IMG/VR virus record: IMGVR_UViG_3300027365_000050
Span: 1-27,898 of that record
DNA: 27,898 nt
Strand: one strand, 5' to 3'
Source of the DNA: a virus
The notes below the pieces were generated by a model. It was not told where the DNA came from. It was given only the letters and a program-made list of their open reading frames with translations, and searched no databases. Below are positions 1 to 27,898 of this stretch, piece by piece; the first letter of the stretch is position 1, and every line of letters starts with the position of its first letter. The translations under genes were made by a program, and so were the position numbers.

Positions 1-54
1 ATACCAACTATTTCTGCTCCACCAAAGTCTAGGTCAGCTTCTAATATATAATCA
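1..54. repeat. Terminal direct repeat, left copy
   Basis: Bases 1-54 are identical to the last 54 bases of the window. The repeat lies inside a gene whose frame stays open across the join, so it is best read as assembly overlap of a circular or circularly permuted genome rather than as a packaged terminal repeat or attachment site. Confidence 0.95.
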
Positions 55-107
55 CCACTAAGTGACATATTTAGAAATTCAGAGGTTGTAGTTATACTTG
101 TAGCCAT
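1..107 (-). CDS. Beta-helix (GLUG-type) fibre protein, N-terminal part (continues at right edge)
   Basis: This is the 5' end of the gene that resumes at the right end of the window. The start is ATG at 107-105, preceded by a GAGAGGGG Shine-Dalgarno site, and 35 full codons follow (beginning MATSITTTSEFLNMSL) before the left edge. Joined through the 54-base overlap, the frame continues without a stop into the minus-strand frame that ends at 26839, giving 370 residues. The N-terminal stretch carries the pattern GDYILEADLDFGG, typical of the opening of GLUG/beta-helix surface proteins. See the entry at 26839-27898 for function. Confidence 0.9.
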   Translation of the reverse strand, partial: MATSITTTSEFLNMSLSGDYILEADLDFGGAEIVG

Positions 108-124
108 TATTTACAACCCCTCTC

Positions 125-545: not shown

Positions 546-1397
546 TTAATCTATTTCAAATAATCTATTACTTAATCTCTCATCTTCTTCAACATCATCA
601 GCTAACTCCTCTACATAAGGTACAAACCTGTGTAAGCAATTAGGATGAATTACTCCTTGTCTATTAGGTAATGCATTATCAATAGAAGGAAACCTATCAC
701 TTTCTCCACTTAAAGAATAAACTCTTCTTTCTAATGGTGCACATATAGGACAAGGATTACCATGAGAAGTTAATTGTACTAAATCTCTCCCCATACTTTC
801 TAACTGATTAAATACACCTTTATTTGTAGCTTCACCTATAACAGTTCTTGCTGACATCTCTGCATACCTTGTGAGCGACCAATCTCGCCCTGCTGAGTCA
901 ACAAAGGATGTAATACCCTGCTTAGATAACTTATCCGCTAATTCCTTCTGTGCCTGCTGTATAGTCTGTCCTGTAGTAAGTTTCTTCTTAGCAACTTCTA
1001 ATTGTATCTTTCTTAACTCATCTTTAACTTGTCTTCCTACAAAGTTGTGTGCTTTAACCATATTATTATAAAAGTTTTGTTGCATTATTCTAACAGCATC
1101 TTTGTGTACTTTAGCAAAATTACTTGCAATAGTATAATCAATATTATTATTATCAAATAGTTTTAGAATACCATTACGAGAACTTCTGTAATTAGTAGGG
1201 ATAGCTTCATTTGAGAACTTATAAACAACTTCATTTAACTCATTTATTTTATTATTAACATCTTTTAATAAGGCTCGCTGAAAGGCAGCCATATTTCCTG
1301 CTGTCCTTTTCTTTTTAATTGTCTTAATTAAACTATCTCTTGCATCAGTATAAATTTTTAATAATTGTCTTAAAGCTAAATCTCTGTCAAATGCCAC
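546..1397 (-). CDS. Phage minor capsid protein 2 (portal-associated, MuF-like position)
   Basis: 283 residues from the GTG at 1397. That start has an ideal AGGTGAT ribosome site; an in-frame TTG at 1412 would add five residues but has no good site. The N-terminal two thirds is helical. The C-terminal part has the signature of the minor capsid protein 2 family: SHGNPCPICAPLE (Cys 216 and 219), then RRVYSLSG, then HPNCLHRFVPY (His 251, Cys 254, His 256), a probable zinc site. Members sit in the head at or near the portal and are needed for assembly or DNA ejection. The gene normally follows the portal directly; here four fibre-like genes intervene upstream and three downstream before the scaffold. 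The family call is confident; the exact role in this phage is inferred. Confidence 0.85.
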   Translation of the reverse strand: MAFDRDLALRQLLKIYTDARDSLIKTIKKKRTAGNMAAFQRALLKDVNNKINELNEVVYKFSNEAIPTNYRSSRNGILKLFDNNNIDYTIASNFAKVHKDAVRIMQQNFYNNMVKAHNFVGRQVKDELRKIQLEVAKKKLTTGQTIQQAQKELADKLSKQGITSFVDSAGRDWSLTRYAEMSARTVIGEATNKGVFNQLESMGRDLVQLTSHGNPCPICAPLERRVYSLSGESDRFPSIDNALPNRQGVIHPNCLHRFVPYVEELADDVEEDERLSNRLFEID

Positions 1398-1414
1398 ATA
1401 ATCACCTACCAATC

Positions 1415-5267: not shown

Positions 5268-6686
5268 TTATTGTTCTGTTCCTTCTTCTTCCTCTTCTCC
5301 AGTTTCTCCAAATACTGTAGGAGCTGGTTCTGGAGGGGCTGTTCTCATAGCATCTTGCTTCATTTTATCTAATTCAGACTGTAATTCTTCTCCTGTTTTA
5401 TTATCAAGAGATTTAATAGCACTTTCTTGTGATATAGTAGCTTTATCTGCTGTTCTCTTTCTCATAATTTCTGCTTGTTCAGCAGGGTCATCTGGTAATC
5501 CATCATTCCATTCAATCTTTAAATCAGTTAATTCTGGTGTATCTATTCCATTCTTTCTTTCTAATTCATTAGCTGTCTTAATCATTTTAGGTAATACATC
5601 ATCAAAAGGTAATCTTTTACGTGAAGTTCTTGCAACACTTCTCATAAGTAACCTTCTCATAGCACTACCACTAGGAACACTACCATTTTCAAATAAACTA
5701 AAAGCCGCCGCATTAGTATCTGTTACAATATAAAGCATTTTCATTATCTTATCAATATATTTAAAGTTAGCTTCTAATCTAGCATCCCAAGTTAAATATC
5801 CTGGAGGTTCTTCATCAGGCCCTACTTCAAAGTATCTACCACCAACATCTACATTCTCTTCGCCTGTTGTAGGGTCATAAGTACTGTTCTTTTGAGGCCC
5901 ATACATATTAGGGTCACTATGCCTATCAAGTATCTTAGCTATCTGTGCAAGACGTATATCAAGCTCTGCGAATAGTGTATCTGCCTCTGTGTAATCATCA
6001 ATCCCATATAAACTATCATCTATCTGTAGATTAGGTACATGGAATATTAATGGTTTATTAACACCTGTTAACTCTTCGTCTCGTTCAATTATTTCTAATA
6101 TCTCATTATTCTTTAGTATATAAGTTCTATAATCAATTCTACCTGCTTGATGAACTTCTACATAGAGTTTCTTTCTATCCTTATCAATCTTCTCTGTAAA
6201 AGCAATTACGTGTGCATTAATCTTATTAATATTACCTCTATCTAATACAGGAAACCAATATTGAGCTGGAACAACTTGGAACTTAGCTTGTCCATCCTCC
6301 ATTACAACCTTATAAATTGCATCTCCTCTATAACTTTGAGATAATGCTGCTTTATAATTTTTAGTCTTTGTATTATTCATCTCAATAAAATTATCTAACC
6401 ACTTTTGTGCTTCTTCATCTTCACCTGCTGAATACATTGGTTCTTCACCAAATAATAAATCTGAATATAACTTACTTACTGCTGATGGAAAATTAACTGA
6501 TATTTGTAATAAATTAGAACTATAATCTAAATCAATTCTCTCCATCATATTTTCTAAATAAACTTCGCTATGTTTTCCTAAGAATAATTTTTTATTGTTG
6601 TTATATCTATCTAATCTTTCTTTATGACCTTTTGGAGGCCAATTCTTACCTGTATGTAAAAAATTTATTTTGTCTGGATTTATCAT
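5268..6686 (-). CDS. Phage portal protein, SPP1 gp6-like
   Basis: 472 residues; ATG at 6686 follows a GGAGGTG site, 11 bases after the terminase stop. The portal forms the dodecameric ring at the capsid vertex through which DNA is packaged and ejected and to which connectors bind. The length, the position directly after the large terminase and the sequence pattern fit the SPP1 gp6-like portal family: an N-terminal wing, a clip/stem region around NINKINAHVIAFTEKIDKDR, then a central GIDDYTEADTLFAELDIRLA segment, and a GSVPSGSAMRRLLMRS segment near residue 335. The acidic tail (EEEEEGTEQ at the very C-terminus) is typical of a flexible portal tail. Confidence 0.9.
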   Translation of the reverse strand: MINPDKINFLHTGKNWPPKGHKERLDRYNNNKKLFLGKHSEVYLENMMERIDLDYSSNLLQISVNFPSAVSKLYSDLLFGEEPMYSAGEDEEAQKWLDNFIEMNNTKTKNYKAALSQSYRGDAIYKVVMEDGQAKFQVVPAQYWFPVLDRGNINKINAHVIAFTEKIDKDRKKLYVEVHQAGRIDYRTYILKNNEILEIIERDEELTGVNKPLIFHVPNLQIDDSLYGIDDYTEADTLFAELDIRLAQIAKILDRHSDPNMYGPQKNSTYDPTTGEENVDVGGRYFEVGPDEEPPGYLTWDARLEANFKYIDKIMKMLYIVTDTNAAAFSLFENGSVPSGSAMRRLLMRSVARTSRKRLPFDDVLPKMIKTANELERKNGIDTPELTDLKIEWNDGLPDDPAEQAEIMRKRTADKATISQESAIKSLDNKTGEELQSELDKMKQDAMRTAPPEPAPTVFGETGEEEEEGTEQ

Positions 6687-6697: not shown

Positions 6698-8083
6698 CTA
6701 AAAACCTTTTGGTTTACCTACAACTCTACTAGCTCTCCTATTTAAAGCTAACTCTGTTAATGCCCATACTAGAGCATCTAACCTATCTGGAGAGTCACTT
6801 CCTTGCTCCCAAGTTGTAAGTTGATCTTCTAATTTCTTTAATTTACCTACATGAAAAACTTTACCTTGTTCATATATTGAAGCAATAGGTTCTGCTCTTA
6901 CACGTTTACCTCTAGATGCTCTAACCTTCTTATATGATACATTTCTACTCTCACTTCTTAAAACACTTTCTACCATATCCCCACCTTGATTAACTTCTGC
7001 AATAATAGTATCTGCATTATACTTTTCATAAGCCGCTATAGCTATCTTAGCCCAACCATTAGGAGATGCTTTAGTTGATCTATCCTCTAACACATAAATG
7101 TAATTATCTTCTCCTATACCCGCTACTATGATACCTGTCTCATCACTTTTTGCTTTATTAGTTGTTGCAGGGTCAATAGCAACTACAATTTTCTTTAAGT
7201 CTGGATAGTCTTTAGAATACTTAAACATATCATAATTCCATAATGCACTTTCATCAGTCTTTCTAGGTTCTTGCTGATATAAAGATAAAAACATTCTATC
7301 TAATAAGGTGTTTCTAATATCTTCTAATTCAGATACAGGGTATCTTTCTTCCCATAATGCTTCTCCTTCTTGTCTTCCTAAAATGTCTTCTTCTTTTGCA
7401 ATTGCTGGAAAATTAACTATATCCCAATTATTACCTTCTTGTTTTAATAACCTACCTGCTAAATCGTCTTCATGCCATCTAGTCATTACCAATACAATAG
7501 CTCCATCTGGAGTTAATCTTGTACGTAAAACTGACTGATACCATTTCCAAACTTTCTCTCTATATGTCTTACTAGAAGCTTCTTCCCAGTTCTTAACAGG
7601 GTCATCTATTATTGCTACGTTAGCACCTCTACCAGTAATAGGGCCTCCTACTCCTGCTGCTGTTAAACCACCATCATAACCTTCTATATTCCAATTTTTA
7701 ATAGCTGAACTATCATTTGCTAAAGAAACATCAAATAGGTCTGCATTATCTCTTAAAGTATTTCTAGCAATTCTTGAAAAATCATAAGCTAAATCAGCTG
7801 CATAAGAACTCAATATAATTTCTTTATTTGGATTTTTACCTAAATACCAAGCAGGGAATTTCTTACTAACTACTTCCGATTTTCCGTGTCTTGGAGGTAA
7901 GAAAACCATTAATCTTTTAAGTTCTCCATTTTCTACTGCTTCTAATTTTTCACATATTAACTCTAAATGCTTTGCTCTCATCCATTTATAATCACTATCA
8001 TACTCAAGAAAATGTGAAAGGTGTCTTCTAGATAACTCTCTTTTAGCTTCCCTCGATTTTTCGATTAACTTCTTCAAGTGCAA
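6698..8083 (-). CDS. terL: Terminase large subunit (ATPase-nuclease)
   Basis: 461 residues. It drives DNA packaging and cuts concatemers. Walker A is FLPPRHGKS (residues 61-69, K68); Walker B is VAIIDDP (156-162). A TRWHEDDLAGRL segment follows at 201-212. The RNase-H-like nuclease domain begins with VVAIDPATTNK (Asp304), and SPDRLDALVWAL (431-442) supplies further acidic residues. The start overlaps the small-subunit gene by 41 bases. TTG at 8083 and TTG at 8077 are both possible behind GAGGAG (spacers of 4 and 10 bases); no ATG is near. All motifs look intact, so the enzyme should be active. Confidence 0.95.
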   Translation of the reverse strand: MHLKKLIEKSREAKRELSRRHLSHFLEYDSDYKWMRAKHLELICEKLEAVENGELKRLMVFLPPRHGKSEVVSKKFPAWYLGKNPNKEIILSSYAADLAYDFSRIARNTLRDNADLFDVSLANDSSAIKNWNIEGYDGGLTAAGVGGPITGRGANVAIIDDPVKNWEEASSKTYREKVWKWYQSVLRTRLTPDGAIVLVMTRWHEDDLAGRLLKQEGNNWDIVNFPAIAKEEDILGRQEGEALWEERYPVSELEDIRNTLLDRMFLSLYQQEPRKTDESALWNYDMFKYSKDYPDLKKIVVAIDPATTNKAKSDETGIIVAGIGEDNYIYVLEDRSTKASPNGWAKIAIAAYEKYNADTIIAEVNQGGDMVESVLRSESRNVSYKKVRASRGKRVRAEPIASIYEQGKVFHVGKLKKLEDQLTTWEQGSDSPDRLDALVWALTELALNRRASRVVGKPKGF

Positions 8084-8468
8084 TCAACTCCTCATCGGAA
8101 AGTCCCGATAAGTCATACTCTACTTCAATTGGTTCTCCGTTATTTCCTGTAACTTCTTTTCTATCCTTATATTTATTCTTCATTTCAAAATAAAGTTTTA
8201 TAGCTCTTACATTACCATCTTTTGCTCTTTTTATTAAAGATTTCCATATATTAGCTTCTTGACTGTCTGTGTAACTATCAATTTTTCTATCAACTGCTTT
8301 TTTAAATTCTTCATCATCTAACCAATCATATATAGTAGACCTTGCTACTCCACATTTCTCTGCGATAGCCTTTATAGAGGTAATGGAAGGGTCAACAAAC
8401 ATAGGTAATGCAGTCATTTGCTTTTTTGTTAGGTTAGCATATGTAGTTTTCTGTTTTTTACTAGTCAA
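8043..8468 (-). CDS. terS: Terminase small subunit
   Basis: 141 residues from the TTG at 8468, which has a strong GGAAGGAG site eight bases upstream. A longer frame starting at GTG 8507 would overlap the zinc-ribbon gene and lacks a good site. The N-terminus carries a helix-turn-helix (about residues 28-52: SITSIKAIAEKCGVARSTI then YDWL), the DNA-recognition domain of small terminases. A helical oligomerisation region (60-105) and an acidic C-terminal tail ending SGLSDEELIALEEVNRKIEG follow. It lies just upstream of, and overlaps, the large subunit. It should recognise the packaging site, probably within or near this region. Confidence 0.9.
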   Translation of the reverse strand: MTSKKQKTTYANLTKKQMTALPMFVDPSITSIKAIAEKCGVARSTIYDWLDDEEFKKAVDRKIDSYTDSQEANIWKSLIKRAKDGNVRAIKLYFEMKNKYKDRKEVTGNNGEPIEVEYDLSGLSDEELIALEEVNRKIEGS

Positions 8469-8485
8469 TGTAAACACTCCTTCCA

Positions 8486-8665
8486 CTAGGTGAATATATC
8501 TTTCCACGCTGTTTTTATTGCTTTCTTTAACTCTTCTATAGCTAATCTTAATTCATAAACTTGTATTTCATATGTATCTTTAAAAGTTTCCCTACATTCG
8601 GGACAATATCTATTTATCAACTCATCACCATCATACTCTTTATAACAAAGATTACAGATACTCAT
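8486..8665 (-). CDS. Zinc-ribbon microprotein, 59 residues
   Basis: The ATG at 8665 follows an AAGGGGGAT ribosome site; the TAG at 8486 lies 17 bases before the small-terminase start. The product begins MSICNLCYKEYDGDEL and contains two Cys pairs, C4-x2-C7 and C21-x2-C24 (YCPEC), a classical zinc-ribbon knuckle, followed by an alpha-helical acidic/basic segment (YEIQVYELRLAIEELKKAIK). Small zinc-ribbon proteins at the head of terminase operons are known, but their role is not established. DNA binding at the packaging site or a regulatory role is a guess. The gap-filling position and intact Cys pairs make this a convincing gene despite its size. Confidence 0.8.
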   Translation of the reverse strand: MSICNLCYKEYDGDELINRYCPECRETFKDTYEIQVYELRLAIEELKKAIKTAWKDIFT

Positions 8666-8692
8666 AAGATTTATCCCCCTTATAATTTAACT

Positions 8693-8779
8693 CTAATTTA
8701 AAATATTAAATATAATTAAATATCTATTAAAATTAGTTCTATCAATTGTGTTATCAATAGGTCTTTTACTTATGGGCAT
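8693..8779 (-). CDS. 28-residue ORF or leader peptide upstream of the zinc-ribbon gene
   Basis: The ATG at 8779 is preceded by a full GGAGGTG site (minus strand of 8786-8792). The product begins MPISKRPIDNTIDRTNF and ends in a short hydrophobic run. The ribosome site lies in the internal loop of a hairpin (8781-8819), so its translation may be structure-controlled. It may be a leader peptide, the start of a decayed gene, or chance. Confidence 0.4.
   Translation of the reverse strand: MPISKRPIDNTIDRTNFNRYLIIFNILN
8717..8745 (-). promoter_or_regulatory. Weak sigma-A-like promoter candidate before zinc ribbon/terminase
   Basis: On the minus strand a TTGATA box (8745-8740) is separated by 17 bases from TATTTA (8722-8717). 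The -35 is 5/6 to consensus and the -10 is weak. In such AT-rich DNA this could be chance. Confidence 0.25.
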
Positions 8780-8780
8780 T

Positions 8781-8819
8781 CCTAACACCTCCTGTAAGGC
8801 TCTCATAGCCTACACTAGG
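8781..8819 (-). promoter_or_regulatory. Hairpin carrying a Shine-Dalgarno site
   Basis: On the minus strand, TGTAGGCT pairs with AGCCTTACA (one bulged T) around a five-base loop. An outer CCTA/TAGG stem then encloses the GGAGGTG site used by the 28-codon ORF. The GC-rich stem stands out from its AT-rich surroundings. Confidence 0.5.
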
Positions 8820-8909
8820 CATTTAAATCTTTTAATAGTGTTACACACCACATTTTAATTAAACCCTCTTATAAGCTGTTCTCATTATAAAACTTGAATA
8901 AATTAGCAT

Positions 8910-8936
8910 AAAAAAGAGAGAGCTATTAACTCCCCT
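8910..8936 (-). terminator. Candidate terminator after the HNH gene
   Basis: On the minus strand GGGGAG...CTCTCT can pair (with G-T wobbles) around TTAATAG, followed directly by a run of six T. It lies about 30 bases after the HNH stop codon. It would separate the accessory genes from the terminase operon. Confidence 0.45.
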
Positions 8937-8964
8937 ATATAATCCTTAACCAGAAATTTATCAA

Positions 8965-9450
8965 TTAAGACCTTCCACTAAAATAATTATGAAGTCCTTT
9001 AACATCATCTTTTCTAACATTTCCATTAATAAGTTGAGAAATATAAGAATAGTGAACATCAATTCCTAAACTTTTTAGTTCATCTGATAGCTCCATTAAA
9101 GTATAATCGTTACTATAATATTTCTTAAAAATTACAAATAACTCTACATCATCTAATCTTGTATTATGAAATTTTATGTGTTCTTGAGGAGTCATCACTT
9201 CTAAATGAGCTGGATTAACACAATTTTTATTACCACAAGTATGATGAACAACTAAACCATCTTCTAGGTCAGTCTGATTATCAAATGTTTTCATTAACCT
9301 GTGAACTAATACATGTTCTCCACCTTTTTGGTATTGAGGGTAACCACTACCCATTATGTATGGATATAGGTAACAACCATCTTCTGTAACAGTAACATCA
9401 CTAAGAATACCCTCTACAACATCAGCTTTAATCTCTTTAAATTTAATCAC
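8965..9450 (-). CDS. HNH homing-type endonuclease
   Basis: 161 residues from GTG 9450, nine bases after an AAAGGGGA site; a TTG at 9459 is in frame but abuts that site. The core VVHHTCGNKNCVNPAHLEVM (residues 67-86) is the HNH_3-type motif, with His69/His70 (catalytic), Cys72/Cys77, Asn79 and His82. It is followed by TPQEHIKFHN. Upstream, VHRLMKTF precedes the motif as usual. The C-terminal 50 residues (YTLMELSDELKSL...HYSYISQLINGNVRK) look like a helix-turn-helix for target recognition. Free-standing HNH nucleases near terminase genes are common in phages, acting as homing elements and sometimes aiding packaging. No intron around it is evident. Confidence 0.88.
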   Translation of the reverse strand: MIKFKEIKADVVEGILSDVTVTEDGCYLYPYIMGSGYPQYQKGGEHVLVHRLMKTFDNQTDLEDGLVVHHTCGNKNCVNPAHLEVMTPQEHIKFHNTRLDDVELFVIFKKYYSNDYTLMELSDELKSLGIDVHYSYISQLINGNVRKDDVKGLHNYFSGRS

Positions 9451-9525
9451 TTTTATCAATCCCCTTTAGATTAATTTTTTTCATCCCCTTAGTATGTTTT
9501 AATAATGAGCTTATTAAATTTATAT

Positions 9526-9565
9526 AAAAATGTATAGATGGAGGAAAGGGGATGTACAACCTCCA
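9526..9565 (-). terminator. Weak terminator-like hairpin after the 61-residue gene
   Basis: TGGAGG (9539-9544) and CCTCCA (9560-9565) pair perfectly around a 15-base loop; on the minus strand a run of five T follows about ten bases later. The long loop and offset T run make this a weak terminator. It might instead be an RNA or protein recognition hairpin. Confidence 0.35.
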
Positions 9566-9576
9566 CCTAAATTTTA

Positions 9577-9762
9577 TTAACTAATTAAATCATCTATGAA
9601 TTGAATATTATCACTTAAATCAACATCAATACCATATTCTTTATATAGTTCTTCTTCAAATTGTTCTTGATATTCTCTTACATCTTCTGATGGTAAACCT
9701 TCCATTTCATCATAGAATAAATATATTTTATTTAATATCTTACTATAATTAATCATTATCAT
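9577..9762 (-). CDS. Small acidic protein, 61 residues, first gene of the leftward unit
   Basis: ATG at 9762 follows GAAGGA with six-base spacing. The product is strongly acidic, with many Asp/Glu (PSEDVREYQEQFEEELYKEY, then GIDVDLSDNIQFIDDLIS). No domain is recognised. It is the first gene leftward of the non-coding hub, where phages often place early host-takeover or DNA-mimic proteins; that is only a possibility here. An in-frame ATG two codons in is an alternative start. Confidence 0.65.
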   Translation of the reverse strand: MIMINYSKILNKIYLFYDEMEGLPSEDVREYQEQFEEELYKEYGIDVDLSDNIQFIDDLIS

Positions 9763-9785
9763 TCACTTTCCTTCTTTTTCCCTCT

Positions 9786-9948
9786 CTACTACTATTACTC
9801 GTATTTAAGGTGCTAAAAGTTTACATTTAAACTAAATTAATTCAAATAAATGTAAATAATTGTCAAATAAGAGGAAATATCAATCTTTTTTAACTAATTT
9901 CAATTCTATGTAAACTTTTGAGGGGTAAAATGTGAGTAATAGTAATAG
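9786..9948. repeat. Long imperfect inverted repeat with AT-rich spacer
   Basis: The left arm 9786-9826 and right arm 9908-9948 are each 41 bases. The inner 12 bases (AAAAGTTTACAT / ATGTAAACTTTT) are perfect complements, the outer 15 (CTACTACTATTACTC versus GAGTAATAGTAATAG) pair at 14 of 15, and the 14 between are poorly matched. The 81-base centre is nearly all A/T. A third partial inner copy (ATGTAAACTTT) is at 10385-10395. Confidence 0.75.
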
Positions 9949-10037
9949 ATAGTTATACTACTAAACTAACTAATACTAACTAGCTAATACTACTAATACA
10001 AGTAACTCAAATAGAAAACAGAAAAGGTCTTCCTCTC

Positions 10038-10050
10038 CCAGCGAAGCTGG
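10038..10050. other. Perfect CCAGC-GAA-GCTGG hairpin
   Basis: A five-base perfect GC-rich stem with a GAA triloop in an otherwise AT-rich region. No T tract follows on either side, so it does not look like a terminator. It may be an origin or regulatory RNA element. Confidence 0.5.
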
Positions 10051-10068
10051 ATGATGGGGCTATATTAA

Positions 10069-10114
10069 AGGGGTAATAAAGACATTGTCAGACAAGCTGA
10101 CGAATAAAACCCCT
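10069..10114. other. Two-tier hairpin in control region
   Basis: The inner stem GTCAG (10087-10091) / CTGAC (10097-10101) is perfect. The outer arms AGGGGT (10069-10074) and ACCCCT (10109-10114) are also exact complements, with unpaired A-rich strands between. It includes one of the six GGGGTAA motifs. Confidence 0.5.
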
Positions 10115-10277
10115 CTTATAGGTGTATTAGATTAACTATTCCTATCAGTATCTTTATACCTTACCTATTAGCTATCTCTAGGAGAACAGATAAAACCTCT
10201 AATACTCTCCAATACTACCAATTACTTCTGTATCCTTCCTATTTGATAATCTCTTTGTATAATACACCTTAAATGGG

Positions 10278-10299
10278 TACGTTTATAGTGAAGGGGTAA
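10278..10299 (+). repeat. Iteron-like repeat copy A (partial)
   Basis: TACGTTTATAGTGAAGGGGTAA matches the 3' half of copies B and C, sharing GTGAAGGGGTAA with copy B. Confidence 0.55.
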
Positions 10300-10323
10300 A
10301 GTTTTTAATTAATTTTACTTATA

Positions 10324-10370
10324 TTTTGCATAAAGTGCCTAAAATATCGTTGTAATAAGTGAAGGGGTAA
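10324..10370 (+). repeat. Iteron-like repeat copy B (full 47-base unit)
   Basis: The unit begins TTTTGCATAAAGTG, has TAAAAT at its centre, then GTTGTAATAAGT, and ends in AGGGGTAA. Copy C starts 132 bases later and matches it along nearly the whole length. An inverted copy of its GCATAAAGT core (ACTTTATGC) lies at 10391-10399, between B and C. Confidence 0.75.
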
Positions 10371-10455
10371 TAGTTTAGTAATCAATGTAAACTTTATGCT
10401 ATATAAAATCGTATATTAGTATTAGAGAGGATAAATTAAATTAATTTGTGATTTA

Positions 10456-10503
10456 TTTTGCATAAAGTGGGTAAAATGTGGTTGTAATAAGTAGAGGGGG
10501 TAA
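10456..10503 (+). repeat. Iteron-like repeat copy C (full 48-base unit)
   Basis: Same order of words as copy B: TTTTGCATAAAGTG, TAAAAT, GTTGTAATAAGT, AGGGGGTAA. The two differ at only a few bases and one single-base indel. Confidence 0.75.
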
Positions 10504-10576
10504 AAAGAGAGAAACTATTCTATTAGAAATTATTTAAATTAATTTACAACCTCATTTATACTTTTACCCTTTTTTA

Positions 10577-10602
10577 TCGTTGTTGTTAGTGAAGAGGGTA
10601 AA
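10577..10602 (+). repeat. Iteron-like repeat copy D (partial)
   Basis: TCGTTGTTGTTAGTGAAGAG followed by GGTAAA corresponds to the 3' half of copy B. It ends about 55 bases before the sigma-factor start, so it could belong to that gene's promoter or operator. Confidence 0.55.
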
Positions 10603-10656
10603 TAAGACAATATTTATAAGGCACAAATAAAAAATAACAAAGGGGATTGATTAATA

Positions 10657-11289
10657 ATGAATAACCAAACTTATAAGATGATGGTAAAGGTAGCTGAACT
10701 AGTAGAGGAAACAGAAGAGAAAGAATTAATTAAGATGTATCAGAATGGTAGAGAGAATGAAGCATTAGCTAAGATATTTGTAATGAATTATGGAATGATT
10801 TGTAAAATAAGTAATAAGTATCAGAGTATTGAACAAGAAGTAGCTGATAGTATAGCATTAGAAAGTTTAGATATATGTTTAAGAGATTTTAAATTTGAAG
10901 GAGCAGCTAGGTTAACTTCATTCTTTAATAGAGTATATAAGAATAAATTAATTAATACTTTAAGAAGAAACCAAGCTGATAAGAGAACATTAGATAGAGA
11001 TAGTAATAGTATTGAGGCTATTACAGAAGCAACAGAAGGTAATTTTGGTGTAACTTATGAAGATAATAACATCTACTATGAGAATAAAATAGAGTTTGAC
11101 TTCTATGAGTTAGATTTTCTTACACCTAATGAGAAAGATATACTAAATGAGTTTAATAAGTGTGGTTTTAAGGTTACTAAATCAGATATAGCTGATAGGT
11201 TAGATGTACATAAGTCTTCTATTAGTAGAGCTATTAATAGATTATCTGATAAGTTACCTCAATTAAAAGAGGAATTATTTAATAACTAA
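10657..11289 (+). CDS. Sigma-70-family RNA polymerase sigma factor (phage-encoded)
   Basis: 210 residues. Region 2 spans about 34-104: ALAKIFVMNYGMICKISNKY, then a conserved acidic segment (EVADSIALESLDICLRDFKF), then SFFNRVYKNKLINTLRR, matching the core-binding and -10-recognition helices. Region 4 spans about 155-200: LTPNEKDILNEF, then SDIADRLDVHKSSISRAINR, a helix-turn-helix for -35 recognition. No region 1 or region 3 is evident, as in short ECF-like or phage sigma factors. It is the only clear transcription regulator in the genome. It faces away from the structural operon and lies just downstream of the direct repeats. It probably redirects host RNA polymerase to phage promoters. The start ATG has an AAAGGGGAT site almost identical to that of the GIY-YIG gene. 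Confidence 0.85.
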   Translation: MNNQTYKMMVKVAELVEETEEKELIKMYQNGRENEALAKIFVMNYGMICKISNKYQSIEQEVADSIALESLDICLRDFKFEGAARLTSFFNRVYKNKLINTLRRNQADKRTLDRDSNSIEAITEATEGNFGVTYEDNNIYYENKIEFDFYELDFLTPNEKDILNEFNKCGFKVTKSDIADRLDVHKSSISRAINRLSDKLPQLKEELFNN

Positions 11290-11312
11290 GTTTTAAGAGT
11301 AGGAGAAATAAA

Positions 11313-11384
11313 ATGAAAATTAAAAAGAAAACTCATTATTTTTTTTTTAAGAATAAAGTAAAATTTTTACATAATTACTTATAA
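11313..11384 (+). CDS. 23-residue basic ORF between sigma factor and GIY-YIG gene
   Basis: ATG at 11313 has an AGGAG site seven bases upstream and lies 23 bases after the sigma stop. The product (MKIKKKTHYFFFKNKVKFL then HNYL) is very basic. It contains a run of ten T (11339-11348), so length variation by slippage is possible. It may be real or chance. Confidence 0.3.
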   Translation: MKIKKKTHYFFFKNKVKFLHNYL

Positions 11385-11407
11385 ATTACAAAAGGGGATG
11401 CTTAATA

Positions 11408-12193
11408 ATGAAAAAAGGTTATATTTACTGTATTGAGAATAAGATTAATGGAAAGAAGTACATAGGACAGACTAATAATTTTGAAAAGAGAAAAAAAGAA
11501 CACTTATACGAATTAAGAAACAAGAAACATATTAATAATCATTTACAAGGTGCTTTTAATAAGTATAGAGAAAGAAACTTCAATATTTATCTTTTATCTG
11601 TAGTTAGTTTAGAAGATGTTTATGAGGAAGAGAAAAAATGGATAGAATACTATAATACTTTTAAAGGTGAGGGGTATAACTTAACTATTGGAGGAGAGGG
11701 AACTGGTAGTGGAGAAAATCACCCTTCTTATGGTAAACATATTAATAGTGGAGAGAATAATCCTATGTATGGGAAGGTTAGAAGTAAGGAATCTAATTTA
11801 AAGACAAGTAAATCACTAAGAAAATACTCAGAGATTAATTGTACTCACGTATTTGAGATTATGAAGCTTTATTTTGAAGAAAACTTAACTCAATCCCAAA
11901 TAGCTTACTTATATAGCTCTAGTGAGTCTATTATTGGAGAAGTAATTAACTTAAATCATTGGACAGTAGAAGATTTAAGTAAAAGAGAATTAGAATGTAA
12001 TAGTAAAGGTTCAAAAGTAGGATATAGGGATGTATTTCCTATAATGAAAATGTATTTTGAAGAGAATAAGACTCAATCAGAGGTTGCAGAAAGGTTTAAT
12101 GTAAAACAAGCGTCTATTAGCAGAGTTTTAAACTTAAATCATTGGACTACTAGAGGTCTTGATAAGAGTAATACCCTCTCAGAGGCTGTATAA
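11408..12193 (+). CDS. GIY-YIG homing endonuclease with duplicated HTH tail
   Basis: 261 residues. The nuclease domain occupies about 1-95: GYIYCIENKINGKKYIGQT holds the GIY (5-7) and YIG (18-20) elements, Arg28 lies in FEKRKKEH, and the acidic EEEKKWIEYYN segment (73-83) holds the metal-binding Glu. A NUMOD3-like stretch (GENHPSYGK and GENNPMYGK, about 102-123) follows. The tail has two homologous helix-turn-helix units: VFEIMKLYFEENLTQSQIAY (148-167, ending INLNHWT) and VFPIMKMYFEENKTQSEVAE (209-228, ending LNLNHWT). This is the layout of phage homing enzymes such as I-TevI relatives and SegA-type free-standing nucleases. No flanking intron was recognised. Confidence 0.9.
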   Translation: MKKGYIYCIENKINGKKYIGQTNNFEKRKKEHLYELRNKKHINNHLQGAFNKYRERNFNIYLLSVVSLEDVYEEEKKWIEYYNTFKGEGYNLTIGGEGTGSGENHPSYGKHINSGENNPMYGKVRSKESNLKTSKSLRKYSEINCTHVFEIMKLYFEENLTQSQIAYLYSSSESIIGEVINLNHWTVEDLSKRELECNSKGSKVGYRDVFPIMKMYFEENKTQSEVAERFNVKQASISRVLNLNHWTTRGLDKSNTLSEAV

Positions 12194-12317
12194 GCCTTAT
12201 ATAGAGGAGTAATCAAAAGTATAGTATATTACACCCTTAACTAATATAAACCTCCTTATGGTGGTGTTATGAGCCTTACACAGGGTTCTAACATAAATAA
12301 CTAAATAAAAAAGAAAT

Positions 12318-12348
12318 GCCCCCACTTTTTACGGTGAGGGCTTTTTCT
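12318..12348. terminator. Bidirectional rho-independent terminator
   Basis: GCCCCCAC (12318-12325) pairs with GTGAGGGC (12334-12341) with one C-A mismatch and an eight-base loop. It is followed by TTTTT on the plus strand and, on the minus strand, by ATTTCTTTTTT. It lies between two converging genes and should stop both transcripts. Confidence 0.85.
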
Positions 12349-12364
12349 ATATATATATATATGT

Positions 12365-12769
12365 CTATTCTGGCTTCTTTAGCTCATCTCCTAGTTGTAT
12401 TAGTAATTCACCCATAATAGGCTCATACTGAGTACCAGGAATTTCCTCTTTCACCTTATCAGCTAAAATCTTATAAAACTTATCGTCTAGATCAGTTTCC
12501 ATCAATGCCTCTAATGCTTTAGCTACCATTTCATTCATAATCCGTTTTCCTCCTAGTTTAATTAATATTATTAAAATGTACCTTGCTATCCTTACCTTCA
12601 TTTCATCAGTCCCTAATAACTCATAGTCCAATACTAGTTGATTTAACTTTTCATCATTATACTTTTCAACATTTTCCAACTTTGTATTAGCTATCCTTTT
12701 ATTAGCCTTCTCTATAAGACTGTCTATACTTTCCTGTTCATATAAGAGTTCATCTCTCTTTATCCTCAT
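12365..12769 (-). CDS. Uncharacterised protein after the endolysin, with internal start
   Basis: 134 residues; last gene of the leftward structural/lysis unit. The N-terminal 77 residues are helical and charged, ending in a hydrophobic stretch (RIARYILIILIKLGG, 60-74). Residues 78-134 (starting MNEMVAKALEALMETDL) form an acidic helical part. The codons for L-G-G-K inside the frame spell AGGAGG, ten bases before the ATG at residue 78, so a 57-residue short form may be made. The gene may be two formerly separate genes joined in frame. No family recognised. Lysis-associated position suggests a holin-linked or regulatory role, but this is unproven. Confidence 0.6.
   Translation of the reverse strand: MRIKRDELLYEQESIDSLIEKANKRIANTKLENVEKYNDEKLNQLVLDYELLGTDEMKVRIARYILIILIKLGGKRIMNEMVAKALEALMETDLDDKFYKILADKVKEEIPGTQYEPIMGELLIQLGDELKKPE
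12538..12554 (-). promoter_or_regulatory. Internal ribosome binding site with in-frame ATG
   Basis: On the minus strand AGGAGG (12554-12549) is followed by ten bases and ATG (12538-12536), in the same frame as the surrounding gene. It would start a 57-residue product. Confidence 0.55.
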
Positions 12770-12775
12770 TCCTAA

Positions 12776-13147
12776 TCAAACCCTTTCATCCCACCTTGCT
12801 TTATAACCTCTTACATCAAGATGAATAAAAGTATTATATTTTCCTATACCATCAAAACCTAATCTCTCTGCTATTTCTTCTAAATCATCAATATCAACAG
12901 GAATAGTAGATAGCAGTATGTCCACAGCCTTACCTTGTTTATGAAGACTATTCTTACTTCCTCCAACTTGTCTATTTCTTTCCTCACATCTATAAGCTGA
13001 GGTTATAATTAAAGGGACATTTAAAAAATCCCTTAATTGTTGTAGGTTTTCTAGTAATTGCTCATCTATTTGAACATGTTGATGGTCTGGATGAGTACAC
13101 TCAAACTCTTTTAGATTAAAGTCTTTACTAATTTGAATATTATTCAT
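12776..13147 (-). CDS. Endolysin, M15-type peptidase (L-Ala-D-Glu or D-Ala-D-Ala family)
   Basis: 123 residues, the catalytic domain alone, with no cell-wall-binding domain. The family pattern is intact: TSAYRCEERNRQVGGSKNS (49-67), SLHKQGKAVDI (67-77: zinc ligands His69 and Asp76), and FIHLDVRG (107-114: His109 zinc ligand, Asp111). Peptidases of this type cleave peptidoglycan cross-links or stem peptides and serve as endolysins in many Bacillota phages. It lies directly after a coiled-coil/TM protein (13486-13157), forming a lysis pair. The ATG start has an AGGAGGAT site. Confidence 0.9.
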   Translation of the reverse strand: MNNIQISKDFNLKEFECTHPDHQHVQIDEQLLENLQQLRDFLNVPLIITSAYRCEERNRQVGGSKNSLHKQGKAVDILLSTIPVDIDDLEEIAERLGFDGIGKYNTFIHLDVRGYKARWDERV

Positions 13148-13156
13148 AATATCCTC

Positions 13157-13486
13157 CTAGAATAAACTGTCAAATACACCTAATTCATATAAGTAAAGGA
13201 TAAATGTTATTCCTGTAAATATCCAACTACCATACCTTCTTAAATAATCTTTTACTTGTTTATTAGTCTTCTGTTTAGTTTCTATATCACATACATTTTC
13301 TTTTACCTGCTTTAAACCATCTTTCATTTCTTCTACTTCAATTTCTGCTTCTTCTAAGTCTTCTCTCAAACCATTATATTTTACAATTATTCTATTAGTT
13401 TCAGAGAGGGAAGCTTCTAACTCATCCATTCTATCCATTAAATTACCAATTACTTCTTTATTAGAGAGAAAGTTCTCATCTGCCAA
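13157..13486 (-). CDS. Coiled-coil protein with C-terminal membrane anchor (XhlA-like, lysis)
   Basis: 109 residues from TTG 13486 behind GAGGTG. Residues 15-80 form a long charged coiled coil (NLMDRMDELEASLSETNRII, then further heptads). Residues 86-104 (GSWIFTGITFILYLYELGV) are one membrane-spanning helix at the C-terminus. This is the layout of XhlA/haemolysin-type proteins, which pair with holins or act themselves at the membrane in the lysis cassettes of Bacillota phages. The gene sits directly before the endolysin. No separate classical two-TM holin was found, so it may be the holin itself. Confidence 0.75.
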   Translation of the reverse strand: MADENFLSNKEVIGNLMDRMDELEASLSETNRIIVKYNGLREDLEEAEIEVEEMKDGLKQVKENVCDIETKQKTNKQVKDYLRRYGSWIFTGITFILYLYELGVFDSLF

Positions 13487-17884: not shown

Positions 17885-20800
17885 TCAACCCCTACTTATT
17901 CCATATTTAGACTTGTTTCTCTTCTTATTAGCTTTCTGAACAGCTTCATCTACTTTTTGGTTGAAATCATTCATACCATAAACAGAACCATCAAAATGAA
18001 CATGAACACTATTACCTGTTAAAGCTCCTTGCTGTTCTTCATTAGCTATAATTTCTCCTCTATGTACCTCAGCTATACCACTACCAAGAACTGTTCCACC
18101 AACTGCTGCAGAAGGAATATTAATTCCAATTGCCGCCTCCATAGAACGTCTTGCAATCTTGAATATATCTGGTACATTTTGGAGTTCTTTATTCATTTCC
18201 TCCATACTTTCAGTTGTTTCTTCTGTACCATTCTTTAAGTCATCTAATGATTGTTCTAAAGTATCTGTACTTACTGTTAGACTTACATAATCTATATCTA
18301 CAAAAGGTATTTTATTTAACATTTTAATAATACCATTAATTAACAATTCAATACCTTGTGCTACAAAGTTCCAAGCATCTAAGATACCTTTAGCTATTGT
18401 TAGAATTACTATACCTACAAATCTAAACACCTTTGCTACAGCCTCTAATAGAGGTTTAAGGACTCTTAATACAGGAGCAAATACTTCTCCTATAATATTA
18501 GCTATCTCAGCTAGTACAGGCCCTATATCTTCCATTACTTTAGCAAATGTACCACTATTTTGTACCATAGACATAATTCCGCCTGCAAAATTACCAGATA
18601 ACATTTCTGATAGTCCTCCACCAGCTCCACCAGCTCCTTGTAAAATAGAACCAGTTACAGCTTTTAGATTACTACCAATCTTCTTCCAGTCTATCCCTGT
18701 TACTGTTTTTGCAAACATATTCTTCATATCACTTAGTTTATCGTTCCAAGGTTTTTGAAGCCATTCTTTAGCATTACTAAAAGCACTAAGAGATTTACTC
18801 CACATACCTTTAACTTTTTCTTTTAAATCTATCCATGCAACTCCGATTTTACCCATTAATTTAGTCCAAGCATCTTCTGTTTTTCCTGGTAATGGAACGT
18901 GTTTACCACTACCTCCAGTATTATCATTACTGCTCTCTGGTTTCCCAAATATTTTATCTATTATATCTTTAAAGTTATTTATTGAGTCTTTAACTTTATC
19001 TCCTAAATTGTCTGTTCCTTCAAAAGGTAAAATGTTTCCAATCACATTTAATACATCTACAAGAACATCTAATAAGGCACTAAACCCTTTTCCTAAGATT
19101 TCAGTTATACTTGACATATTATCAGACAAGTCTTTTATCCAAGTTGAAATTCCTTGGAAAGAAAATCCACCAGAACCACTTGATAAGCTTGTCATTACTG
19201 AACCACCATCTTGGTAACCTTTTGTTCTCATACCTTCTAACATTCTTGTTAGTTGGGGGAATTTATTAACCATCCAAGAAGGCATTACCCATTCTCCTCC
19301 ATGAACTACACCTGCAACTTTATCTTTTCCTATATCGCCTGTGAGACCTCCTGTTTTAAAGCCATGACCTATTATACTATCTCTACCACCATTAGGGTCT
19401 ATAAGTGACTCATACAGCCAATTAAGAGGGTTCTGAACGGTATTCTGTCCACTTTGAGCATTATCCCCTATACCAAACTTATTCTGTCCTACATTTCTAT
19501 TCATCCAATTCCAAATATCAAATATACTATCTAAACCTTTTACAGTAAATTCCCAAGTTGTTTTAACTATATTATTAAACCAATCATAAGCATCTTCTCT
19601 TATCCACTTAGCGGCATCATTAACTAAATCAACTGTAAAGAACCAACCTGTTTCTACTGCTCCTGTTAGACCTGGTGCTTTTCCTTCTAACCATTCCCAA
19701 CCATCTCCAGCAATATCTATTATCCAGTTCCATCCAGCTTCCATCCATTGTTTAATATCTTCCCACTTTTCTCTCCAAGTGGTATTCTTCATCCAATCCC
19801 AAGCGTCTCCACTTGTTTCAATTATCCAATCCCAAGCTTCTCCCATCCATTCTAACATTTTATCATAAATAGGTTTTAAATGATTGTTCCATATAGTTTC
19901 TGTTTTATCTCTAATTCCACCCCAATTTTCTGTCCATGCTGTATAAAGCATATAAGAAGCGGCGGCAATTGCTAATGTACCTAATACTATTGGTGAAGTA
20001 ATGACCCCAAAAATAGTACCAAGAATTGCTAAACTCTTTATTACTGTCTCTACTGCAAATGTAAATAAACCTAATCCTGCTACAACAGCTAATACTTTTG
20101 AAGTAAATAAGGTGAAGTTCTTTATATTATTTAATACACCTTCATCTAAATTAGATAAGTTCTCAACTATATCTGCTGTTTTAGTTACAACTTTTGTAGC
20201 TTCTGGGAGGAATTGCTTACCTAATGCTCCTCTAAGGTTTCTCCATTCACCACTTAATCTTTTTAACTGGTTCTCTAATGTATGACCTGTTCTAATAGCA
20301 TCTCCTTGGATATGATTTGTATTATCCATTAAGTAATTATATCTTAACTGAACTTTTCTTGCTTGAGACATTTTTTCTACGTTAGCATCTATACCTTTCT
20401 CTAATGCATAAGCTTGTAATGTTGCTTGTGTTAAATCTATACCAAAAGTTCTTAAGGGTTTTACCATTCCCATTAATCCACTCTGGATTGCATCAAATGC
20501 TTGTTCATCAGCTACATTAAAGAATGAGCCTAAGTCAACAGCTAGAGTTGTTAAGTTCTTTGACATTTGTTCTGTCTGTTTATTTGTACCTAATAAAGGT
20601 TTTAATATTGCTTGGTTCATAGCACTAAATTGTCTCATTTGATAAATAGAACGGTTCATAGCACCTGCTGTCTCATCTGCCCAATCATTAATAGCATCTG
20701 CTGAGTCTCCAAAACTCTGATTAACTACGTTATTTAATTCTTGTGATGCAGAAGCCGCTTGTACCATATAACTTGTAGCCGCTCCTATACCAGCTAGAGC

Positions 20801-20941
20801 AGTAGTAGCTACCTTAGCCGCTCTCTTTATTGTTCTTGAAGCAGATTTCATTCGTCTTTCTGCATTTCTCATTCCTTTATCTAAGCCAGAGGTATCTGCA
20901 TTTATGTGAGCTGTTAATGTTCCGAGATTAATTTCAACCAC
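17885..20941 (-). CDS. Tape measure protein
   Basis: 1018 residues from GTG 20941. It begins with the usual tape-measure opening (LTAHINADTSGLDKGMRNAE), followed by a long helical region and a hydrophobic segment (283-334: KVLAVVAGLGLFTFAVETV...AIAAASYMLYTAW). Next is a Trp-rich tandem repeat (EAWDWIIETSGDAWDWMKN and AGWNWIIDIAGDGWEWLEG, about 365-425). Further on come a VAGVVHGGEWVMPSWMVN segment and a C-terminal GGTVLGSGIAEVHRGEII segment, both typical of the class. By the usual rule of about 0.15 nm per residue the tail would be near 150 nm, i.e. a siphovirus. The gene is preceded by the frameshifted chaperone, as usual. The ribosome site is weak, so coupling with the chaperone extension (7 bases upstream) is likely. 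Confidence 0.92.
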   Translation of the reverse strand: MVEINLGTLTAHINADTSGLDKGMRNAERRMKSASRTIKRAAKVATTALAGIGAATSYMVQAASASQELNNVVNQSFGDSADAINDWADETAGAMNRSIYQMRQFSAMNQAILKPLLGTNKQTEQMSKNLTTLAVDLGSFFNVADEQAFDAIQSGLMGMVKPLRTFGIDLTQATLQAYALEKGIDANVEKMSQARKVQLRYNYLMDNTNHIQGDAIRTGHTLENQLKRLSGEWRNLRGALGKQFLPEATKVVTKTADIVENLSNLDEGVLNNIKNFTLFTSKVLAVVAGLGLFTFAVETVIKSLAILGTIFGVITSPIVLGTLAIAAASYMLYTAWTENWGGIRDKTETIWNNHLKPIYDKMLEWMGEAWDWIIETSGDAWDWMKNTTWREKWEDIKQWMEAGWNWIIDIAGDGWEWLEGKAPGLTGAVETGWFFTVDLVNDAAKWIREDAYDWFNNIVKTTWEFTVKGLDSIFDIWNWMNRNVGQNKFGIGDNAQSGQNTVQNPLNWLYESLIDPNGGRDSIIGHGFKTGGLTGDIGKDKVAGVVHGGEWVMPSWMVNKFPQLTRMLEGMRTKGYQDGGSVMTSLSSGSGGFSFQGISTWIKDLSDNMSSITEILGKGFSALLDVLVDVLNVIGNILPFEGTDNLGDKVKDSINNFKDIIDKIFGKPESSNDNTGGSGKHVPLPGKTEDAWTKLMGKIGVAWIDLKEKVKGMWSKSLSAFSNAKEWLQKPWNDKLSDMKNMFAKTVTGIDWKKIGSNLKAVTGSILQGAGGAGGGLSEMLSGNFAGGIMSMVQNSGTFAKVMEDIGPVLAEIANIIGEVFAPVLRVLKPLLEAVAKVFRFVGIVILTIAKGILDAWNFVAQGIELLINGIIKMLNKIPFVDIDYVSLTVSTDTLEQSLDDLKNGTEETTESMEEMNKELQNVPDIFKIARRSMEAAIGINIPSAAVGGTVLGSGIAEVHRGEIIANEEQQGALTGNSVHVHFDGSVYGMNDFNQKVDEAVQKANKKRNKSKYGISRG

Positions 20942-22413: not shown

Positions 22414-22443
22414 TAAATCACCACCTTGTATTTGAGATTATAT

Positions 22444-22824
22444 TTATACTTCTGTTAATTGACCATTACCTTGAATTGTAACTTCTACTGTCTCTTTATC
22501 TGCTACTGCACCAGAATAATTGAAAGACTCAACTACACCAACACCAGAAAATCCTGCTGTACCATCAGGTAAATATTCTACATCTACACCTTCTCTATTT
22601 AACCATGCACTCTTTAAAGCTGTAAACGCTGGGTCACTAGGTGAATGTTCTAGAGTTAGAGACATAGACCAATCTCTTAAACCATAAAATCTACTTCTAT
22701 AACCTGCAACATTAGTAAATTTAGTATCGTCTAGAATTTCCCCACCCATATCCATGCTAGCACTATTAGCAGGTGCTTCATTAGTATCTACATTAATTGT
22801 TTTTTCATAAGCTGCTTGACTCAT
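22444..22824 (-). CDS. Tail-tube-like protein (smaller of two)
   Basis: 126 residues; ATG at 22824. It has the gpV/TP901-type tube pattern: RSRFYGLRDWSMSLTLEHSP, then FTALKSAWLNREGVDVEYLP, then GFSGVGVVESFNYSGAVADK, with a final V-E-V-T-I-Q-G-N-G-Q-L. It lies between the tail terminator and the larger tail protein. This is the better match to a canonical tail tube. Confidence 0.8.
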   Translation of the reverse strand: MSQAAYEKTINVDTNEAPANSASMDMGGEILDDTKFTNVAGYRSRFYGLRDWSMSLTLEHSPSDPAFTALKSAWLNREGVDVEYLPDGTAGFSGVGVVESFNYSGAVADKETVEVTIQGNGQLTEV

Positions 22825-22843
22825 AATTTAACACTCCTTATTT

Positions 22844-23245: not shown

Positions 23246-23246
23246 T

Positions 23247-23995: not shown

Positions 23996-23996
23996 A

Positions 23997-24814: not shown

Positions 24815-25696
24815 TTACACAATAGCTTCGGTGTGAACATAAATTCCATTAACTTTATTGTCTGGAGTAAAGATATCGTGATATACTCTAGACTGCATTA
24901 ACCAACCATCTTTTCTTTGGTTAGTGTTAGGGTCAAAGATTTTTAGTTCTTGTTGCTTAACAATAGGTAGTCCTGCACTTTGATGTACTAACATAAAGTT
25001 AATAGCATTTCCAGTGGCAGAGAAACCATAAGTAGAAGCACCATTATTAAGAGTAATAGCATCATTAAATCTGCTTTGAGGTACTTTGATTACAGGAATA
25101 TTATCATAAGTATCTACTTTTCTATCACCAATTTGTGCCATCTGTCTATCAAACAAGTCAGAATTTCTCATGTTACTAATTGTTTGAGGACTAGCAAATA
25201 GATATAATCCTTCTCTTGGTACTTCATTATTATCAATAGATACTAGAGCAGTTTCAATTGCTTCTACTGTATCAGAAACTGTTAAATCAGCATTTACAGT
25301 TTGAGCAGTTGGAGCTTTAGCTGCTAGTTGAGCATATCTATAAGCATCAAATTCTGGAGCAACTTTTGTTCTAGCAAATTGACTAGAAGCAAATGTAAAT
25401 ACAGAGTCTAAAGCTTCTTCATTGTCCTGTCTATCAATAGTAAATTCTACACCTCTATCTTGTCCTAGAGAATGAGTTTCCCAACTAAAGTTTACGCTTC
25501 CTTCTGGGTAACCTGTAGCTCTATCATAATCTCCTAATCCATCTACAACAATCTTAGGCAGTAAAATTTCTCCTGCACCTTGTGCTTGTCTTACTAATTC
25601 GTCTGGAATACTTAATACACTAGAAGTTAATTCCCTCTTATACTGTTCATCCAATAAAGTTGTGTACTTTTGTGCTAATTCAATTGTGTTAGCCAT
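24815..25696 (-). CDS. Major capsid protein (HK97 fold)
   Basis: 293 residues; ATG at 25696. Its position after the scaffold and the pattern LAQKYTTLLDEQYKRELTSS, then RATGYPEGSVNFSWETHSLG, then QDRGVEFTIDRQDNEEAL, then LYLFASPQTISNMRNSDLFD fit HK97-fold major capsid proteins of Bacillota phages with a separate scaffold. No protease gene is present, so capsid maturation probably does not involve proteolytic cleavage. Confidence 0.92.
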   Translation of the reverse strand: MANTIELAQKYTTLLDEQYKRELTSSVLSIPDELVRQAQGAGEILLPKIVVDGLGDYDRATGYPEGSVNFSWETHSLGQDRGVEFTIDRQDNEEALDSVFTFASSQFARTKVAPEFDAYRYAQLAAKAPTAQTVNADLTVSDTVEAIETALVSIDNNEVPREGLYLFASPQTISNMRNSDLFDRQMAQIGDRKVDTYDNIPVIKVPQSRFNDAITLNNGASTYGFSATGNAINFMLVHQSAGLPIVKQQELKIFDPNTNQRKDGWLMQSRVYHDIFTPDNKVNGIYVHTEAIV

Positions 25697-26838: not shown

Positions 26839-27898
26839 TTAGTTTCGTCTACCTGCCTCTAAAATAACACCTCTCTTTAAATCAGCTAATAATACTTCCT
26901 CTCTTACAAGTAATATTCTTCTTCTTTTAGAAACATAAATTTGTAATTCAACTTTAGCACCTTTTTGTATTACTTCTAACTGTTGTGAGTTTATATCTAT
27001 ATTTAAATCAATATTAGAACCTTTTTTTATCTTCTCAAGTAATGTCTGTGAATTAATTCCAATACCAATATTAATACTTTCTCCATTTTGATACTTCTCT
27101 AATAATGTTTGTGAGTTTATATCTAATTCTAGACTAACATCATTACCACTAGAAAACTTCTCTAATAGTATCTGTGAGTTAACATCAACACTTATATCAA
27201 CCATAGAACCGTCTGATAGACGCTCTAGGATAGTCTGTGAGGACACTATAAGCTCTAGAGGTACATTAACCCCTCTAGTCTCTATCTGTGGTGTAAACTC
27301 CAATACAGGGTAATTACCATCTTCTAATTTCCAAATATGAGTATCCCAACCAGCATCTAGGAAAGTCTGTTTTGTTCTAGCTTCACTATCAGTAAGTGGT
27401 GTACCATTACCATTATCTGTAATATCATTATTATCTACATAGAAACAATCAGATACAGTAGATGAATGTAATATATTACTTACAGCACCATCTAAACTGC
27501 CAGTATTTGTAGTAATATTTACAGCAAAACAATTTTCAACTTTACTTGTATCCATTGTTCTACCAACAAATACACCACCATACTGGATACTAGATAAATA
27601 CATTTCAGTATTCATTACTTTACAATCTCTTATAATTCCATTCTCTTCTGTCCAACCTGCAATCATTCCTGCATAATAACCTGTCTGTGGTTTACCATTG
27701 TCTATAGTAAGTCTTTCCACTATTCCATTTAAACCTACACCATAAAATAATGTACCCACATTTGAGAAATCTATTCTATAATTACTAATAGTGTGATAGT
27801 TACCGTCAAAGTGACCTGTAAAAAATGTTTCACTAGTTTGCCCTATACCAACTATTTCTGCTCCACCAAAGTCTAGGTCAGCTTCTAATATATAATCA
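26839..27898 (-). CDS. Beta-helix (GLUG-type) fibre protein, main part (starts at 107, wraps)
   Basis: C-terminal 353 of 370 residues in this window (the overlap repeats part of the gene); the true start is at 107. Residues up to about 215 form a GLUG-like beta-helix: HFDGNYHTISNYRID, GTLFYGVGLNGIVERLTI, GYYAGMIAGWTEENGIIRDC, YGGVFVGRTMDTSKVENCFA, ending in IWKLEDGNYPVLEF, the usual closing of this adhesin-like class. From about 220 there are five repeats of about 23 residues with NSQTLLEK or similar at the core (SSQTILERL, NSQILLEKF, NSQTLLEKY, NSQTLLEKI, NSQQLEVI). The tail is basic. It is likely a virion adhesin or fibre encoded in the head cluster. A GTG at 27759 is not the real start. 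Confidence 0.85.
   Translation of the reverse strand, partial: DYILEADLDFGGAEIVGIGQTSETFFTGHFDGNYHTISNYRIDFSNVGTLFYGVGLNGIVERLTIDNGKPQTGYYAGMIAGWTEENGIIRDCKVMNTEMYLSSIQYGGVFVGRTMDTSKVENCFAVNITTNTGSLDGAVSNILHSSTVSDCFYVDNNDITDNGNGTPLTDSEARTKQTFLDAGWDTHIWKLEDGNYPVLEFTPQIETRGVNVPLELIVSSQTILERLSDGSMVDISVDVNSQILLEKFSSGNDVSLELDINSQTLLEKYQNGESINIGIGINSQTLLEKIKKGSNIDLNIDINSQQLEVIQKGAKVELQIYVSKRRRILLVREEVLLADLKRGVILEAGRRN
27845..27898. repeat. Terminal direct repeat, right copy
   Basis: Identical to bases 1-54. With one copy removed the circle is 27,844 bp. Confidence 0.95.

Follow-up and report, generated by a model that had tools for sequence, protein, structure and literature searches.

A complete-looking 27,844-bp siphovirus circle with no recognisable replication genes and a repeat-bearing non-coding hub beside a sigma-like gene

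How a tailed phage is copied when its closed genome appears to carry no gene for replication is the question raised by positions 1 to 27,898 of IMG/VR record IMGVR_UViG_3300027365_000050, the 27,898-nucleotide stretch that was analysed here and is called the window. The annotated related phages that we inspected all carry a helicase loader, a primase/helicase, a replisome organiser or a similar protein. A closed phage circle without any replication gene would, if true, be an unusually reduced host-dependent replicator, or alternatively an indication that the early and late genes of a tailed phage can be divided between separate replicons. A literature search found no precedent for tailed phages with early and late genes on separate replicons, and nothing usable on replication-gene-free ones.

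The first 54 bases of the contig are identical to the last 54, the longest overlap present, and merging them gives a circle of 27,844 bp. The open reading frame over the join reads through and encodes a 370-aa GLUG protein (26839..27844, with its start within 1-124, minus strand). Independent support for the join was sought, given the shortness of the overlap and its location within a GLUG-motif gene. A pattern derived from the overlap was found in one other IMG/VR contig, L126 (3300027365_000167, 8467 bp), where the GLUG orthologue is contiguous. The window join with 150 bp on either side is 98.7% identical to L126 over 298 nt, ungapped, and the gene order in L126 (127-aa protein, GLUG protein, 120-aa protein) is that of the window. 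Since the terminase, portal and capsid of L126 differ from those of the window, this contig represents a different phage, and the join does not stem from an artefact in one assembly. A contig from a second sample (L082, 3300009194) matches window positions 21940-27627 at 99.98% over 5688 bp. The late-gene order is canonical and continues across the join. With ends that join continuously and an independent contig in agreement, the circular genome appears complete; the overlap, the 370-aa frame and L126 thus bear out the preliminary description, in which a complete-looking circle closed through an intact gene.

The circle holds 33 genes and is 91% coding. A late operon of 25 kb runs leftward (minus strand) from a non-coding hub at 9763..10656. 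It begins with an acidic 61-aa ORF for which relatives were not found (9577..9762), an HNH homing endonuclease (8965..9459; phrog_826, E=1.6e-18; Pfam HNH_3) and a 59-aa, cysteine-rich, zinc-finger-like protein with weak matches only (8486..8665), followed by the terminase small subunit (8043..8507; phrog_24579, E=1.6e-27), the terminase large subunit (6698..8083; phrog_38, E=1.7e-113; Pfam Terminase_6N/6C) and the portal protein (5268..6686; phrog_533, E=2.5e-45). After the portal come two small proteins, a beta-propeller protein, the minor head protein (546..1412; phrog_581, E=8.5e-41; Pfam Phage_min_cap2), a 128-aa protein, the GLUG protein over the join, a 120-aa protein, a scaffold protein and the major capsid protein (24815..25696; phrog_422, E=6.1e-82). 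The operon continues with head-tail genes, tail tube, chaperone, tape measure protein (17885..20941; phrog_1535, E=9e-36), tail tip, a holin-like gene, an M15 peptidase endolysin (12776..13147; phrog_894, E=9.6e-34; Pfam Peptidase_M15_3) and a 134-aa protein adjoining the lysis genes (12365..12769). The rightward (plus) strand carries only a sigma-like gene and a GIY-YIG homing endonuclease gene (11408..12193; phrog_314, E=2.3e-29; Pfam GIY-YIG and NUMOD3), and a terminator-like hairpin (12318..12341) lies between the two convergent units.

Two products of the leftward strand deserve separate mention. The beta-propeller repeat protein (991 aa, window 1415-4390; PQQ_2, phrog_8401) is adhesin-like, and its place between the portal and minor head genes is unusual for such a protein. 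Directly after the capsid gene, window 24542-24793 encodes an 83-aa protein with a Rho_N (SAP-like) domain.

The siphovirus gene set (terminase, portal, capsid, tape measure, tail and lysis) is thus present in canonical order. Searches of PHROGs, Pfam, NCBIfam and PDB matched only packaging, head, tail and lysis functions, the HNH and GIY-YIG endonucleases and the sigma-like protein. The same searches found no polymerase, helicase, primase, initiator, SSB, recombinase, integrase or repressor, a result that could miss a protein of a novel family. The preliminary description, made from the sequence with a count of about 35 genes, had likewise recognised no replication, recombination, integration or repressor gene, and the profile searches agree with it; its inventory had, on the other hand, omitted the sigma-70-family factor at 10657-11289. 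Judged by its gene content, the genome is that of a small siphovirus with late genes plus one predicted regulator.

A replication module lies between lysis and terminase in PMBT5, RG-TP1, TPWB-10, TVCOM_ph1 and a Vagococcus phage-plasmid. In the window, the corresponding slot (8508-12364) is contiguous inside the contig, distant from the join, and contains nothing but endonucleases, small ORFs, the hub and the sigma gene. Eggerthella phage PMBT5 (30.9 kb) has the nearest annotated capsid relative (38%), the same late gene order and a similar size, but carries a DnaC-like helicase loader, an SSB and a Holliday junction resolvase between lysis and terminase. Among the portals of the phage collection, the closest (36%) is that of Terrisporobacter phage TVCOM_ph1, which has the same head gene order; this phage differs in being temperate, at 41.5 kb, with a DnaD-like loader, SSB, Erf and an integrase.

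The hub is the circle's only divergent gene boundary. At 894 bp it is the only non-coding stretch above 300 bp, the next largest being 299 and 248 bp, which upholds its earlier description as the only sizeable non-coding region, and it holds no ORF above 26 aa. The dyad (I1, 9782-9851/9883-9952) and the direct repeats (10304/10436) reported earlier are both present. They are, however, instances of the same element: the hub repeats are six, probably seven, copies (A to G) of one module of about 50 bp, with the dyad arms corresponding to copies A and B facing outward and the supposed iterons to D and E. Each module has a T(A/T)AAAT-type box and, in the 22 bases that follow, a purine-rich end.

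Module copies were aligned by eye and with MAFFT. In leave-one-out profiles, modules A-E and G ranked 4 to 7 when every position of the circle was scored, and outscored at least 299 of 300 shuffled hubs, figures that are somewhat optimistic because the copies were initially chosen by eye. The best-pair statistic is unaffected by that choice: the best pair, D versus E, is identical at 41/50 positions, whereas no pair in 60 shuffled hubs exceeded 32/50. A family-size statistic at 19/30 identity did not discriminate the modules, whereas the leave-one-out profiles did, and a profile scan of the circle found no site outside the hub scoring near the modules.

Module A (9779..9828, minus strand; leave-one-out score 39.2, 0/300 shuffles) points toward the leftward late operon, beside its first ORF. 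Module B (9906..9955, plus strand; 0/300 shuffles, 35/50 identical to A) points toward the ORF-free centre of the hub, a position like that of PE1 in phage c2. Modules G (10249..10298; 0/300), D (10320..10369; 0/300), C (10383..10432; 1/300, 35/50 identical to A), E (10452..10501; 0/300) and F (10550..10599), all on the plus strand, lie upstream of the sigma gene with a spacing of 63-98 bp. F is a weak or partial copy, its score being reached by 75/300 shuffles, although over the final 23 nt it matches D at 83% identity. Between B and G lies the 293-bp ORF-free centre (9956..10248), a possible primer-transcript region with the short hairpins CCAGCGAAGCTGG and GTCAGacaagCTGAC.

RNA folding of this centre was weakly above chance (z -1.6 to -2.2), and sliding folds were mostly within chance. 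An Rfam search of the hub gave chance-level matches only and none at the gathering threshold; together with the sliding folds, this led us to reject a conserved RNA in the hub. The hub also contains a GCGAAGC mini-hairpin (window 10039-10045), and mini-hairpins of this type are present in the origins of some phages.

Immediately to the right of the hub lies the gene for the sigma-70-family RNA polymerase sigma factor (10657..11289, plus strand, 210 aa). Its product matches NCBIfam TIGR02937 over residues 35-200 and model positions 1-161 of 165 (E=5.7e-11), spanning sigma-70 regions 2 to 4. The score of 42.3 bits is under the curated cutoff of 42.9, which is a naming threshold and not a biological feature. 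The product also matches phrog_351 (E=2.6e-7) and is 24% identical to Gp69, the sigma-70-family factor of Streptococcus phage Dp-1, which differs in its size of 56.5 kb and in encoding DnaC, DnaB, DnaG and a DNA polymerase around the sigma gene. Structure prediction without an alignment gave a pLDDT of 37. On E-value and coverage, the protein bears a strong likeness to a divergent member of the sigma-70 family.

What the modules do can be approached from their arrangement. The preliminary description called them iteron-like; the repeats are real, about 50 bp long and 63-98 bp apart with one copy inverted, but they are probably not iterons. Copies point outward into the flanking units, no match to a Rep family was found on the circle, the gene beside the repeats is sigma-like, and the hub lacks an exact DnaA box (TTATNCACA), with one-mismatch sites about as frequent as chance predicts for the window. 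For these reasons, and from module orientation, position and the adjacent sigma gene, the modules look more like an array of predicted promoters, in which A faces the late operon and the other copies face rightward toward the sigma gene. Against a promoter array, the module spacing is unlike that of a standard sigma-A promoter. For plain promoters it is also odd that five or six copies precede a short unit and one precedes the 25-kb operon.

GC skew around the circle follows gene orientation and the coding strand, so it is no independent sign of an origin and gives no origin location. No convincing relatives of the hub DNA were found in searches that included 50,697 phage records.

The closest known parallel is with the lactococcal c2-type phages (Ceduovirus), whose origins lie between divergent gene blocks and between the promoters PE1 and PE2, give rise to a non-coding transcript, and support plasmid replication without phage proteins (PMC7150918). 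The circle shares with them a small siphovirus genome, a non-coding region between divergent gene blocks, and an ORF-free stretch between promoter-like elements, here the 293 bases flanked by B and G, whose promoter role is predicted. It had been suggested earlier that a c2-like mode could apply. The layout at the divergent boundary fits, but the parallel is looser than that, since the early genes of c2-type phages include ERF, SSB and polymerase-type ones (PMC7150918), none of which was found here, while a sigma factor is predicted here and none is mentioned for the c2-type phages in that source. Comparison of the hub with known c2-type origins revealed no convincing similarity among the 50,697 phage records, and the known c2-type ori types are themselves dissimilar to one another (PMC7150918). 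By its gene content the circle appears to exceed c2 in lacking early replication and recombination genes, and we do not claim membership of the c2 type.

The account we put forward, tentatively and at somewhat less than an even chance, combines divergent promoters under sigma control with replication by the host's replisome, for which a hub transcript may serve as primer, as it does in c2. Host RNA polymerase would transcribe the sigma gene first. The sigma factor would then recognise the hub modules, amplify expression of its own gene to the right and activate the leftward 25-kb late operon. The host replisome would copy the DNA from the hub, and the replication primer would be a non-coding transcript begun at module B and ending before G, resembling that of the c2 origin. 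Replication is probably host-dependent, and copying by the host from the hub would be the simplest route for an isolated circle to persist. The weak RNA structure of the hub centre and the early replication and recombination genes of c2-type phages count against this account.

The main alternative is that the circle is the late-gene part of a divided system, with replication proteins supplied by a helper phage, a plasmid or a second segment. That only late functions are present on the circle agrees with this, and a segment given over to late control could well carry a sigma gene. L126, a different phage, has GLUG and lysis genes in common with the circle, so the related elements probably share a host. 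A partner was not found, however: module patterns gave 0, 0 and 24 hits in IMG/VR, the 24 unrelated in context. This is weak evidence, since the search covers viral records, among which a partner lacking structural genes might not be counted. We regard a divided system as somewhat unlikely, and its specific form, a bipartite tailed double-stranded DNA phage with this circle as late-gene chromosome and the replication genes on a separate replicon, as unlikely. A milder alternative to the bipartite reading is that this tailed phage may be self-sufficient, with a sigma factor that makes the primer transcript as its sole protein related to replication.

A distinctly unlikely explanation is that the circle encodes an unrecognised initiator, either the 61-aa or the 59-aa protein or the sigma-like protein acting at the hub repeats. 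The repeats do stand directly upstream of the 210-aa gene, as iterons stand before a rep gene, and several small proteins have no relatives. Yet the fit of the 210-aa protein to sigma-70 models and the missing exact DnaA box count against it, and proteins of 59 and 61 aa are very small for initiators. The 134-aa protein, which the preliminary description had listed as a candidate, is an improbable one: its 135-aa orthologue lies beside the endolysin in L126, an otherwise different phage. Structure prediction of the 134-aa protein without an alignment gave an all-helical, low-confidence model (pLDDT 45).

It is improbable that the circle is a deletion derivative of a larger phage, having lost the early module and being carried by its parent. 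What is absent corresponds exactly to the module that related phages have between lysis and terminase, and the hub region has a homing endonuclease on either side; but the hub is elaborate and not a scar, the only other contig found with the same capsid gene is a collinear piece of the same genome, and a longer form was not found, though near records may be missing from the searched set. Least credible is an assembly artefact that conceals a larger genome: although this is a metagenomic contig with a short overlap within a repeat-bearing GLUG-family gene, the circle has no exact repeat of 20 bp or more, the gene order at the join is canonical, and L126 reads straight across it, which rules out closure through a 54-bp GLUG repeat and makes the artefact very improbable.

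As to the host, relatives of the portal and capsid proteins are mostly phages or phage-plasmids of Bacillota, although the nearest capsid relative infects Eggerthella (Actinomycetota). No capsid relatives were found in genome contigs, and terminase relatives are mostly alphaproteobacterial, which is uninformative about the host. The host is thus probably in Bacillota, a tentative assignment.

L126 itself shows several further features. Its lysis cassette (7040-8149) is 76% identical at the DNA level to that of the window (12365-13486), and the GLUG region is 82% identical (98.7% around the join). This sharing, despite different terminase and capsid genes, suggests recent exchange of particular modules and a shared host. 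Positions 1-127 and 8341-8467 of L126 form an exact inverted terminal repeat of 127 bp, within which the terminase gene starts; as 127 is a common assembler k, the repeat may have arisen in the assembly graph, or it may be real. In L126 6245-8149, head genes and two adaptor-sized ORFs are followed by the lysis cassette with tail genes absent between, which would fit a phage with a short tail, a fragment or a rearranged element.
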